A DNA stretch of 64,000 nt from NCBI GenBank assembly GCA_021158465.1, contig JAGGUN010000022.1:21601-85600 (forward strand). Reading direction: 5' to 3'. Under the pieces are notes generated by a model that ran no database searches, was not told the DNA's origin, and worked only from the letters and a program-made list of their open reading frames with translations. A program made the translations under genes and the position numbers. The DNA is from a bacterium (lineage in GTDB: Bacteria > UBP14 > UBA6098 > 4484-93). Below are positions 21,502 through 24,765 of the stretch, in pieces (positions within the stretch are counted from its first letter, which is position 1; each line of letters starts with the position of its first letter).

Positions 21502-21677
21502 GCTATCCTTCTGCGCCGGTGAATTGGAAACCCCAGAATTCCGCTTTTATCTTGACAGAGCATCCGATGAACCATATCTTGAAGTCATACCTTTGGAAAA
21601 AGGTAAGTAGAATGCCTGCTGTCGCCTTGAAAAGATTTAAAATATCAAAACTCATTAGCCATTATAGGAGATGAAAA
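21498..21677 (+). other. thiL-methyltransferase gap with two short open frames, possible gene remnant
   Basis: This 176-nt gap marks the shift from normal composition (left) to the AT-rich island (right, from about 21625). One frame opens with TTG overlapping the thiL stop and runs 58 codons to 21674. Another, without a good start, reads ELSFCAGELETPEF... to a TAG at 21608-21610 and looks more protein-like. Either may be the end of a gene cut by island insertion, or chance. There is a short hairpin ACCTTT/AAAGGT near 21590-21605 without a T-run. No attC-like site is seen here. Confidence 0.25.
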
Positions 21678-22616
21678 ATGGGAGAAAAATATATAAAAAT
21701 GAAGGAAGTAACTCACAAAGATTATCTGGAATTTATCAAAGATAAAACATCTGTAATAATCGAAGATGTAGAGATAAAACTTCAAAAGAACTGGAACATA
21801 AAATCTTATGCTCCACCTAACGATTATACTCCAGAACGAACAACGGTATGGAGCTTCCCTGATCGTGGTGATTGGGCAACCCATAAGGGGAATTATAGAG
21901 GGAACTGGTCTCCATATATACCCAGAAATCTTATTTTGAAATATACTCAGAAAGGGGATTGGGTTCTTGATCAGATGATGGGTAGTGGAACAACTTTGGT
22001 AGAAGCAAAGTTGTTGGAAAGAAATGCTATCGGAGTAGATATAAATCTTGATGCTGTTATGGTAGCGCGAGATCGTTTAAATTTCTCATATAACCCACTT
22101 TTCCCTGAATACAAAGAACCCATAATAAAAACATACTGGGGAGATGCAAGAAATTTAGATAAAATTGATGACGAAAGCATCGACCTCATCGCCGCACATC
22201 CACCATATGCAAGTATAATATCGTATACAAAAAATAAAAAATTGAGCGATGACCTGTCGCAATTACCATTTGAAGAGTATCTTAAAGGAATGCGAAAAGT
22301 GGCTGAGGAGGTTTTTAGAGTATTAAAACCCGGTAAAATATGTGCAATCCTGATAGGAGATACAAGAAAACACAAGCACTATGTGCCTATTGCTTTTAGG
22401 GTTATGCAAGCATTTCTTGATGTAGGCTTTATTCTGAAAGAAGATCTTATTAAACTGCAGTGGAATATGAAAAGCACGAGAGAAAGGTGGCGCGCAAAGG
22501 AGTATGAGTTTTATCTCATCGCTCACGAGCATATCTTTGTTTTTAGAAAACCGGAGAGTGAGAAAGAATATAAAAAATACAAATTTAGCGTGAGGTGGAG
22601 GAATGGAAATAAATGA
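21678..22616 (+). CDS. SAM-dependent DNA methyltransferase (N6/N4 type)
   Basis: A 312-residue adenine-N6 or cytosine-N4 DNA methyltransferase. The SAM-binding motif I is LDQMMGSGTTLVEA (G102-T106), and the catalytic motif IV is AAHPPYAS (H174-Y177). That is a histidine variant of the (D/N/S)PPY signature, with motif I before motif IV. The start has a TAGGAGATG ribosome site. It overlaps the next gene by 14 bp, so the pair is translationally coupled and may form a restriction-modification or other defence unit. The region is clearly more AT-rich than the flanking core genes, consistent with horizontal transfer. The target site cannot be predicted. Confidence 0.87.
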   Translation: MGEKYIKMKEVTHKDYLEFIKDKTSVIIEDVEIKLQKNWNIKSYAPPNDYTPERTTVWSFPDRGDWATHKGNYRGNWSPYIPRNLILKYTQKGDWVLDQMMGSGTTLVEAKLLERNAIGVDINLDAVMVARDRLNFSYNPLFPEYKEPIIKTYWGDARNLDKIDDESIDLIAAHPPYASIISYTKNKKLSDDLSQLPFEEYLKGMRKVAEEVFRVLKPGKICAILIGDTRKHKHYVPIAFRVMQAFLDVGFILKEDLIKLQWNMKSTRERWRAKEYEFYLIAHEHIFVFRKPESEKEYKKYKFSVRWRNGNK

Positions 22617-23166
22617 TCTCAAAGAGCTTATGACATTCAGAAGTCAAGGTGAAATTAGAAGACCTATAAGTGTAATAAAGGTGAATGATAATTTCATTTT
22701 GGCAATATACAAGGGAAGAAAAGGACCAGCAGATATTCTAATCAGATATAGACAAAAGTTGAAAAATGGTGAATGGTCAAACATCAGAACGCCCAAGCAT
22801 ATTCATTGGACAGTAGATATTTTAATAAAAATGTTTCAAGAAGAGCATTTAACAAAACAATTCATAGACGAACTGATGAAAATTTGGAAAAAGGAAATCC
22901 AACCTATGACTCAAAATGAGAGAGATAGACTTGAATTAGATGAATTGTTAAACTATGATAAAGAGACTCTTGAGCGATTTAGGGAGCTTAGTAAATATGG
23001 TGAATATAATGTAAGATTTCTTTTATTGCTCGCAAAATTGCTAATGCTTCAGGAGAGAACAAATTATCCAGAAGGACAATTATTTCAAACCCTGTTAAAA
23101 AAGTTGAAACAAGGGGAAGATATTTTCAGTATTTTGCAAACAGCAACTCTAAGGAGGTTAAGATAA
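22603..23166 (+). CDS. unknown protein coupled to DNA methyltransferase, candidate restriction partner
   Basis: A 187-residue, lysine-rich soluble protein with no signal peptide or membrane segment. The N-terminal half holds predicted strands and a basic patch ending TPKHIHWTVDILIK. The C-terminal half is helical and charged (NERDRLELDELL, then LLLLAKLLML). I recognise no catalytic motif. The 14-bp overlap with the methyltransferase and the shared AT-rich composition indicate a functional pair, with a type II restriction enzyme or a specificity/helper subunit as the first guess. An attC-like element follows 57 nt after its stop. Confidence 0.75.
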   Translation: MEINDLKELMTFRSQGEIRRPISVIKVNDNFILAIYKGRKGPADILIRYRQKLKNGEWSNIRTPKHIHWTVDILIKMFQEEHLTKQFIDELMKIWKKEIQPMTQNERDRLELDELLNYDKETLERFRELSKYGEYNVRFLLLLAKLLMLQERTNYPEGQLFQTLLKKLKQGEDIFSILQTATLRRLR

Positions 23167-23223
23167 GATGTTCGGCGATGGTAGGCACTCTGAGGTGCTT
23201 TGCACCTTGCCCCTATTCGGGTC

Positions 23224-23302
23224 ACTTAACACGGGCTATACGGTTCACTTCGTTCGCCCAAATCGGCTTACGCCGACTTCGTATAGCCCGATACCGTTAT
23301 TT
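23224..23302 (+). repeat. attC-like imperfect palindrome 1 (integron cassette site candidate)
   Basis: ACTTAAC (23224-23230) fits the RYYYAAC R-box. A perfect 11-bp inverted repeat follows, CGGGCTATACG (23232-23242) with CGTATAGCCCG (23280-23290). The spacer is 1 nt on the left and 5 nt (ATACC) on the right, and a GTTATTT box begins at 23296. The loop holds GCCCAAAT and a small hairpin (TCGGC/GCCGA). This AAC, stem, unequal spacer, GTT plan is that of integron attC sites. The second element shares the plan and GCCCAAAT while its stem sequence differs. The next gene starts 38 nt after GTT. Confidence 0.62.
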
Positions 23303-23336
23303 GCAATGTGCATTATGATGAAAGAGATGTGAGATA

Positions 23337-23828
23337 ATGAAAACCGAGGTGGGAGAATATATTGTAGGTGCATACTTGAAGATCATCAAAGGATGTGATT
23401 TTGTCGATTATAATGTTAGACCCCCAGGTGGTGGACTCGAAGGGTTAAATGAATTAGATGTTGTGGGATTAGATTTCAAAAATAGAATCGCTTATCTATG
23501 CGAGGTCACTACTCATATAAGGGGGCTTCTATATAAAGATAACAAAACTACTGTCGAGAGAATAAAAACAAAATACGACAAACAGAAAAAATATGCCGAT
23601 AAATACCTTTCGGATTTTCCTAATCGGTATTTCATGTTCTGGTCGCCAGTCGTCCCTAAAGGTTATATTACTAGCGAGCTCGAAAAAATTGATGGACTAG
23701 AGTTAGTCATTAATGAAAAATATGCACGATGCATAGATGAATTAAGAGAAAAAGCAAAAGAACTCACTAATGATGTTGGAAATCCATTTTTCAGGATGCT
23801 TCAAATATTAGAACATTTGAGGAAATAA
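23337..23828 (+). CDS. PD-(D/E)XK-like nuclease candidate in a gene cassette
   Basis: A 163-residue protein. An N-terminal helix with E7 is followed by NELDVVGLDF and YLCEVTTH. The spacing of D41 and E56-x-T58 between a strand and a turn is that of a PD-(D/E)XK core, with Thr in place of the usual Lys. The C-terminal part is charged and helical. The gene fills the space between two attC-like palindromes almost exactly (38 nt after the first GTT, 17 nt before the second element), like a one-gene cassette. It has low GC. Nuclease activity is inference, and a non-catalytic member of the fold is possible. Confidence 0.75.
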   Translation: MKTEVGEYIVGAYLKIIKGCDFVDYNVRPPGGGLEGLNELDVVGLDFKNRIAYLCEVTTHIRGLLYKDNKTTVERIKTKYDKQKKYADKYLSDFPNRYFMFWSPVVPKGYITSELEKIDGLELVINEKYARCIDELREKAKELTNDVGNPFFRMLQILEHLRK

Positions 23829-23845
23829 TAGAGTATGCACACAGC

Positions 23846-23933
23846 AGATAACAGAGCGCATCTGGCTACGGTGCTTCGCATCTCTGCCCAAATCCTGCTT
23901 CGTAGGACTTCAGATACGCTCGGAACGTTTGGT
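23846..23933 (+). repeat. attC-like imperfect palindrome 2
   Basis: AGATAAC (23846-23852) is followed after 1 nt by GAGCGCATCTG (23854-23864). Its partner CAGATACGCTC (23911-23921) pairs at 10 of 11 positions. A 5-nt spacer and a GTT box at 23927-23929 follow. The interior has GCCCAAAT and a TCCT/AGGA mini-hairpin followed by ACTT, at the same places as in element 1. The outer R-boxes match the attC consensus less well than in element 1. The HNH gene begins 51 nt after GTT. Confidence 0.58.
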
Positions 23934-23980
23934 GGCATCGCGGTTTTGAGTTTAAAGGAAGAAATAAAAGGAGGAATAAA

Positions 23981-24553
23981 ATGGCTCTAAAGCCTCCCAG
24001 CAGATTGGTCAAGACCGTTCGGGAGCTGATATATTGGCTATATGCTGAACTTATAGCAAGAGCTGCAGGTTTTGAAGGTAACTATGGGTTTGTGATTTCC
24101 CGCTATAAGAAACTAAAATCTGGAGAAATGAAATGGTCATCGTCTATACGGGACCGTCAGAAGGAATGGGAGAAAGGCAAAGTGTGTGTATATTGTGGTG
24201 CAACGAAAAACCTTACTATAGACCATATAATCCCCGTCTCCAGGGCAGGTGTAGACCCAAGAGTAAGAAACCTTTTAGATTCGTCGGACAACTGCGTTTG
24301 GGCGTGTAAGAAATGCAATAGCAGCAAGGGCGATCGTGATATCTTTGAGTGGTATGGCAAGGAACGTGTAGACGAAATTCCCAAGCTTGTAATTTCAAAA
24401 TTTTTAAAGATATCATACAAGTTGCATGAAACTCAAGGCACCCTTGATTTGGAGGATCCAAATATGGATGGCGTTCTGGATATCTACGATTTGGGGGTTG
24501 TAATCACTCACTTGATTTCTAAATTATCTGTGGAACCGGGGAAAAAGGTTTAG
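23981..24553 (+). CDS. HNH endonuclease
   Basis: A 190-residue protein whose centre is a zinc-type HNH nuclease domain. It has C69-x2-C72 (CVYCG), the IDHIIPVSRAG active-site strand with H82, an asparagine-containing DNCVWACKKCNSSKGD and the second CxxC. The N-terminal 60 residues are basic. The C-terminal 50 carry an acidic DPNMDGVLDIYDLG stretch resembling an EF-hand or dockerin-like loop. It has a strong ribosome site (AAAGGAGG). It follows the second attC-like element but has no recognisable attC after it, so it may be the last, damaged or anchored cassette. A defence or homing role is possible. Confidence 0.88.
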   Translation: MALKPPSRLVKTVRELIYWLYAELIARAAGFEGNYGFVISRYKKLKSGEMKWSSSIRDRQKEWEKGKVCVYCGATKNLTIDHIIPVSRAGVDPRVRNLLDSSDNCVWACKKCNSSKGDRDIFEWYGKERVDEIPKLVISKFLKISYKLHETQGTLDLEDPNMDGVLDIYDLGVVITHLISKLSVEPGKKV

Positions 24554-24692: not shown

Positions 24693-24765
24693 TGGAGCTT
24701 ACGGGGTTCGAACCCGTGACCTCTTGTCTGCCAGACAAGTGCTCTCCCAGCTGAGCTAAAGCCCC
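24693..24765 (-). tRNA. tRNA-Ala(GGC)
   Basis: A 73-nt tRNA fold on the minus strand. The acceptor GGGGCTT pairs with AAGCTCC and includes the G3:U70 pair that identifies alanine tRNAs. The D-arm is GCTC...GAGC, the anticodon stem CTTGT/ACAAG carries a CTGGCAG loop with anticodon GGC, and the T-arm is CGGGTTCGAACCCG. The 3' CCA is not encoded, and a T-run (TTTTTTT) follows at once, possibly part of a terminator. It lies between rho and the AT-rich island. No duplicate of its 3' end was found at the far island edge. Confidence 0.96.

Follow-up and report, generated by a model that had tools for sequence, protein, structure and literature searches.

The window, that is, the whole 64-kb stretch of DNA analysed, contains a short run of genes punctuated by two palindromes that resemble the attC sites of integron cassettes. 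The following features lie at the locus:

21678 to 22616, + strand: type II DNA methyltransferase gene of the upstream cassette (Pfam N6_N4_Mtase, 5e-30; PADLOC MTase_II, 7e-77)
22603 to 23166, + strand: ORF187, overlapping the methyltransferase gene by 14 nt
23223 to 23303, + strand: attC-like site 1, which ends the upstream cassette and starts the ORF163 cassette (direct reading, and 74.2 bits with covariance model R1, see below)
23297 to 23927, + strand: complete mobile cassette, TTATTTGC ... GCAGATAAC plus site 2 up to the G
23337 to 23828, + strand: ORF163, putative PD-(D/E)XK-like nuclease (AF2 and Foldseek)
23845 to 23934, + strand: attC-like site 2, the ORF163 cassette's own site (direct reading, and 76.1 bits with R1)
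23928 to 24553, + strand: segment after site 2, with the start GTTTGGTGGCAT and an HNH endonuclease gene at 23981-24553 (Pfam HNH, 2e-10)

ORF187 had no match in the databases searched (Pfam and PADLOC among them) and has a homologue (34%) in the genus-mate G001; judged by position only, we infer that it is the restriction partner of the methyltransferase. ORF163 had no Pfam or PADLOC match above threshold, and a scan of viral contigs contained no relatives of it. Its AF2 model (pLDDT 56) gave weak Foldseek matches with nucleases on top (Shedu, N.BspD6I, Card1), and on this model ORF163 may be a nuclease. The segment at 23928-24553 appears to be a truncated or terminal cassette, or flanking DNA, since an attC of its own was not found; nor was there a complementary end downstream. 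The expected start of the methyltransferase cassette, GTTAAGTGACC, was likewise not found. By eye, GGTAAGTAGAAT at 21602-21613 weakly matches the expected start GTTAAGTGAAAT of this cassette (9/12 positions) and is possibly a decayed cassette start. A tRNA-Ala gene (24693-24765, - strand; anticodon GGC by eye) directly follows the HNH segment, beside rho. The interval between thiL and the tRNA looks variable, because G001 diverges directly after the thiL stop codon.

The initial annotation had assigned a common plan to both palindromes, namely AAC, a 1-nt spacer, an 11-bp stem, GCCCAAAT, a mini-hairpin, the second arm, a 5-nt spacer and GTT, with ORF163 filling the space between them. This plan is present in the sequence, and the gene does fill that space:

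Site 1: AAC 23228-23230; spacer A 23231; arm CGGGCTATACG 23232-23242; GCCCAAAT 23256-23263; mini-hairpin CGGC-TTAC-GCCG 23264-23275; arm CGTATAGCCCG 23280-23290; spacer ATACC; GTT 23296-23298
Site 2: AAC 23850-23852; spacer A; arm GAGCGCATCTG 23854-23864; GCCCAAAT 23886-23893; arm CAGATACGCTC 23911-23921; spacer GGAAC; GTT 23927-23929

The arms pair at 11/11 positions in site 1 and at 10/11 in site 2 (a single C-A mismatch), and the L'' arm of neither site contains an extrahelical base. The inferred cuts lie between 23296 and 23297 and between 23927 and 23928, respectively, in each case between the G and the TT of GTT (G/TT). Two copies found by eye are in themselves weak evidence, because only site 1 folded better than its own shuffles (z -3.1, compared with a z of about 0 for site 2) and the frequency of GCCCAAAT as a lone marker was not above chance.

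To extend the comparison, a covariance model (R1) was built in this analysis from 13 intact copies, 2 from the window and 11 archaeal, and was used instead of the published attC model. As R1 was built from these very sites, its matches share its bias; the start/end pairing and the breakpoints described below are independent of it. On the 64-kb window, R1 returned sites 1 and 2 at 74 and 76 bits and nothing else up to E=10. The palindromes do have further copies in the window's genome, where R1 detected two additional sites (C33, E=1.8e-13; C36, E=1.3e-9). These sites (L196:6063-6144, - strand, and L197:7081-7162, + strand) neighbour TauE and Nitro_FeMo-Co genes, and small genes downstream of an apparent gyrA. 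Matches at E<=1e-5 were present in 28 of 193 sampled genomes; the archaea G061 and G062 contained 23 and 9 sites, whereas class 1 integron controls gave no match. Across the 13-copy alignment the stem was 97.2% paired, with compensatory (two-sided) changes in 7 of 11 stem pairs, while controls in which the 3' partners were shifted across the whole structure paired at only 23-43%. AAC and GTT were invariant (13/13). Thus, the structure is kept while the stem sequence varies, as had been proposed from the two window copies.

We compared the ORF163 cassette with its counterparts in other genomes. The same cassette occurs at L078 in G016, at L082 and at L084. In G016, which belongs to the same class but to a different genus (its deposited name is bacterium B30_G16), the ORF163 relative is 94% identical at the amino acid level. 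The DNA of the window and of G016 is alike from GTTAT[T/C]TGCAATGT on and unrelated before, and in G016 the cassette abuts an attI-like site. The L084 cassette begins at the identical base, behind a different attC stem of the same plan. The G/TT breakpoint is thereby seen in three genomes (window, G016 and L084). The left half of window site 2 also terminates archaeal cassette copies. The bin of L084 is archaeal, since this contig carries PAC2 and FrhB genes and other contigs of the bin carry genes for archaeal aRF1 and the DNA polymerase II small subunit; each of these contigs is assumed to belong to the bin. Upstream of the L084 palindrome lies a methyltransferase gene with an MjaI-type restriction enzyme. 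A scan of named genomes located further ORF163 relatives in an Elusimicrobia MAG (86%), an Omnitrophota MAG (75%) and archaeal MAGs; the archaeal carriers include two Methanosarcinales MAGs from Arctic Ridge vents, one of them the source of L084, and in both of them ORF163 is internally deleted. The Elusimicrobia copy (L079:5364-5855) lies amid apparent trp genes with no attC, suggesting that arrays are not the only setting in which the gene moves or settles.

In an integron, both ends of one cassette are complementary, and the outer boxes of one array site stem from different cassettes. The window cassette shows this pattern, with 15/18 positions complementary between its start and its own end, and reverse-complementing GCAGATAAC of window site 2 gives exactly GTTATCTGC of G016. 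Start/end pairing was first noticed in 11 cassettes. In 30 cassettes, positions 4-12 of the start paired with the cassette's own end at 5.8/9 positions, compared with 4.1 in cross-locus controls (0/20000 resamples), and the variable R positions within a single site were mostly unpaired. This test is independent of R1, as the model pairs only AAC/GTT and the stem. Note that the outer pairing in these 30 cassettes reaches about base 16, beyond the usual 7-base R box, and that base 11 is a conserved mismatch (A at the start, C at the end).

These results also bear on whether the palindromes are REP/MITE-type repeats or transcribed RNA structures, such as terminators, lying by chance between genes. 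Both are indeed intergenic and downstream of genes. However, an Rfam search of the region matched neither site (the sole real match was a tRNA), homology breaks at GTT instead of at the repeat ends, and the end of a cassette is complementary to its own start rather than to the opposite side of the site. Unless artefactual, the boundary and pairing evidence rules out the terminator, REP and RNA-element readings, which we regard as highly improbable. Sequence comparison instead identifies the palindromes as recombination sites of mobile cassettes, almost certainly of the integron style, and for this reason the layout of a cassette array without a nearby integrase (CALIN), as initially annotated, holds for the folded sites, the G/TT boundaries and the shared cassette. 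The part of that annotation that does not hold is the equation with an ordinary integron: the sites mostly lack the extrahelical base, and the recombinase linked to such arrays lacks the I2 insertion typical of IntI, as described below.

We next consider the type of site. An extrahelical base is lacking in 55 of 66 sites and present on the L'' arm in 9; an unpaired central spacer is present, mostly 1x5. In ordinary attCs the first extrahelical base has been called absolutely conserved (PMC2727003), and extrahelical bases are docked by the I2 helix of the integrase (PMC7790495). I2 is missing from XerCD, as extrahelical bases are from the stem of the CTX phage (PMC4792948). The absence of the base from the sites matches the absence of I2 from the linked recombinase. 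Exactly 11 positions after the cut are conserved, with the majority sequence TTATGTGAAAT; this is near the XerD arm of dif, TTATGTTAAAT (PMC2731167), a likeness equalled by shuffled arms in 211/20000 cases. Together with the six bases and the 11-bp arm that precede them, these positions form a layout similar to the 11-6-11 plan of dif. Chromosomal dif is a single-copy, 28-bp double-stranded site at the terminus. The window sites are not chromosomal dif, being 81-90-nt hairpins with four copies in the genome.

Which recombinase could act on these sites? Consistent with an array lacking its integrase, a search of the window's genome (97.6% complete) for an IntI-type enzyme found none above the family cut-off (best TIGR02249 score 72.9 bits, cut-off 265); the genome contains two recombinases only, both Xer-like. 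In other genomes recombinases of one family lie beside arrays of this type. The recombinase of G106 (C55), intact and 394 residues long, lies upstream of three sites and on their strand. In G187 a frameshifted relative likewise precedes a single site on the same strand, and in G161 and G180 decayed recombinase C-termini lie upstream of sites on the same strand. In G016 a C-terminal fragment immediately precedes the ORF163 cassette. In the archaeon G061, a contig bearing archaeal genes has a recombinase N-terminus at its end, and a second contig, G061:C213, whose archaeal origin is less sure, contains a short recombinase remnant with an attI-like stretch. Only the G106 copy is intact, all others being frameshifted or fragments, and in most arrays, including that of the window, the recombinase is absent from the stretch examined. 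Because the loci were partly picked through R1 site matches, the association between array and recombinase is strong but not unbiased.

The I2 insertion is absent from the G106 and G187 proteins and present in 8/8 aligned canonical IntIs, IntI1 included. The G106 recombinase passes the NCBIfam XerA model (233.7 bits, cut-off 220) and fails the IntI model (225.6 bits, cut-off 265). In a tree, the IntIs form one group (100/99) with both I2-less proteins outside. The G106 protein has a HARP-like N-terminal domain (sub-threshold) and ends in a C-terminal K[NS]PLD as in IntI. The literature searched, whose coverage may be incomplete, contained no earlier report of I2-less integrases.

Between the recombinase stop codon and the first cassette lies an attI carrying two palindromes of ~21 bp. 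In G016 and G106 these span -28..-8 and -66..-46 relative to the cut; their counterparts in G180 and in the archaeal remnant are close to those positions, while in G187 the inner palindrome alone scored. The G106 palindromes differ in sequence and are still palindromic. Between G016 and G187 the sequence matches as far as GAATGAG and diverges past the G/TTA cut.

This linkage is relevant to the question of whether a dedicated enzyme is needed at all or the host's XerC/XerD, or XerA in archaea, mobilises the cassettes, as for pdif modules and the CTX phage. The dif-like geometry and arm consensus, and the finding of only two Xer-like recombinases in the window's genome, are in line with such a route. 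Nevertheless, we consider it improbable, as the arrays are linked to a dedicated recombinase that has an attI of its own and adjoins a cassette precisely at the cut, and the site hairpins measure some 80-95 nt as opposed to the 28 bp of dif.

It is unlikely, although less so than the Xer route, that the array is an ordinary CALIN, with a divergent attC subclass served by canonical IntI in trans and with coincidental I2-less neighbours. AAC/GTT and the cassette logic are identical to those of ordinary integrons, CALINs are frequent in archaea and many of their diverse attCs are substrates of IntI1 (PMC9668308), and canonical IntI exists within the window's class (G005, 366 bits; a fragment in G002). 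Yet neither G005 nor G002 contains an R1 site, and the canonical IntI loci examined, G106's own and that of G005 among them, have no site of this type nearby. The IntI of G005 was therefore rejected as the partner. In G106 the stretches examined around six canonical or partial IntI genes contain no such site, while the I2-less locus has three. Moreover, most sites lack the extrahelical base of an ordinary attC, and in several genomes the I2-less recombinase and attI lie immediately ahead of the arrays. The native enzyme of this array type is thus probably the I2-less recombinase.

Taken together, the comparisons support a system that would work like an integron without being an ordinary one. 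Our preferred explanation, with a probability of roughly 0.7, is a CALIN-like array of folded sites that exchange at G/TT through an I2-less, Xer-like recombinase with an attI platform. Each site would fold on one strand into a hairpin in which the 1x5 internal loop separates a variable R stem from an exact 11-bp L stem, and whose head comprises GCCCAAAT and the hairpin. With DNA exchange at G/TT by a tyrosine recombinase, a cassette would span from TT to the next G, its single site lying at the 3' end. As found in other genomes, the platform belonging to such arrays would consist of the I2-less recombinase in array direction, then the two-palindrome attI, then the cassettes. Given the dif-like geometry and the general lack of extrahelical bases, the hairpin may mimic a double-stranded Xer-type site, as in the CTX phage; recognition via extrahelical bases is not the proposed route. 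The comparisons establish the anatomy of the sites, the covariation, the cassette boundaries, the spread across genera and domains, the start/end pairing and the linkage to recombinase and attI. Folding in vivo, the strand used, the action of this particular recombinase and its delivery in trans to the window's genome are presumed in this scheme. We read the system as an I2-less, dif-like integron variant of putative activity with one intact recombinase copy.

Known systems share parts of this design. The CALINs of archaea and bacteria (Ghaly et al. 2022, PMC9668308) likewise comprise attC-like arrays without IntI and cassettes common to both domains, with attI directly downstream of the integrase gene and with restriction-modification and toxin-antitoxin cargo; among the arrays analysed here, that of G003:C38 carries a ParE toxin gene. 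In contrast, the archaeal IntIs of that study carry the IntI-specific domain that the recombinase linked here lacks, and the paired attI palindromes set the present system apart. Class 1 attC/IntI1 also has AAC...GTT, cassettes running from TT to G and R boxes pairing within the cassette, but its spacers are several nt on each side (by eye) instead of 1x5, its extrahelical base is reported as conserved (PMC2727003) where here it is mostly absent, and IntI1 has I2, unlike the G106 and G187 proteins. The folded attP of the CTX phage with XerC/XerD, and dif/pdif, share the 11-6-11 plan, the XerD-like arm and a stem without extrahelical bases (PMC4792948, PMC2731167), but differ from the present multi-cassette arrays with their own recombinase, attI and long structured head. 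XerA/XerD-type recombinases lack I2 as well, but the G106 protein differs from them in its N-terminus, its K[NS]PLD end and its linkage to attI and cassettes.

The system may bear on the origin of integrons. Gain of I2 by a Xer-like ancestor has been proposed (PMC4792948), and the I2 helix is held to have let integrase ancestors act on single-stranded attC (PMC7790495, PMC4792948). There is perhaps an even chance that we are dealing with a separate or ancestral-type integron lineage in many uncultivated bacteria and Methanosarcinales, capturing cassettes through an I2-less Xer-like enzyme and folded dif-like sites without extrahelical bases. If so, it would represent a functioning step from Xer/CTX-type recombination towards the textbook integron, and an I2-less enzyme with sites lacking the I2-docked bases would make the proposed transition directly testable. 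Some 'CALINs' would then own an integrase missed by IntI-based searches. The locus also adds a cassette beside restriction-modification genes that is common to an uncultivated bacterial class and Methanosarcinales archaea.

Finally, we looked at relatives of the recombinase outside these arrays. None were present in a scan of viral contigs. Searches of plasmids and phages turned up distant relatives that lack I2, both in Bacteroidota plasmids and in the form of Acinetobacter TnpF; the three stretches examined contained no site of this type. The TnpF (L269:2967-3632), encoded beside tet(X3), shares 52% identity with the I2-less recombinase; it too has no I2, its end reads KSPMD, and sites of this type were not found on its 5-kb plasmid. 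A canonical IntI of G189 (L261:51-1346, - strand) has an N-terminal region like the sub-threshold HARP-like one of the G106 recombinase. In G016:C93, a 121-residue ORF (L064:599-964, - strand) joins the recombinase C-terminus to an N-terminus that by eye resembles an HsdR domain of type I restriction, which suggests a recombination product or a misassembly. Within the window's class, decayed C-termini nearer to the I2-less family than to IntI occur in G003 (L072 and L070) and G006 (L071), and attI-like palindromes follow both G003 C-termini by eye.
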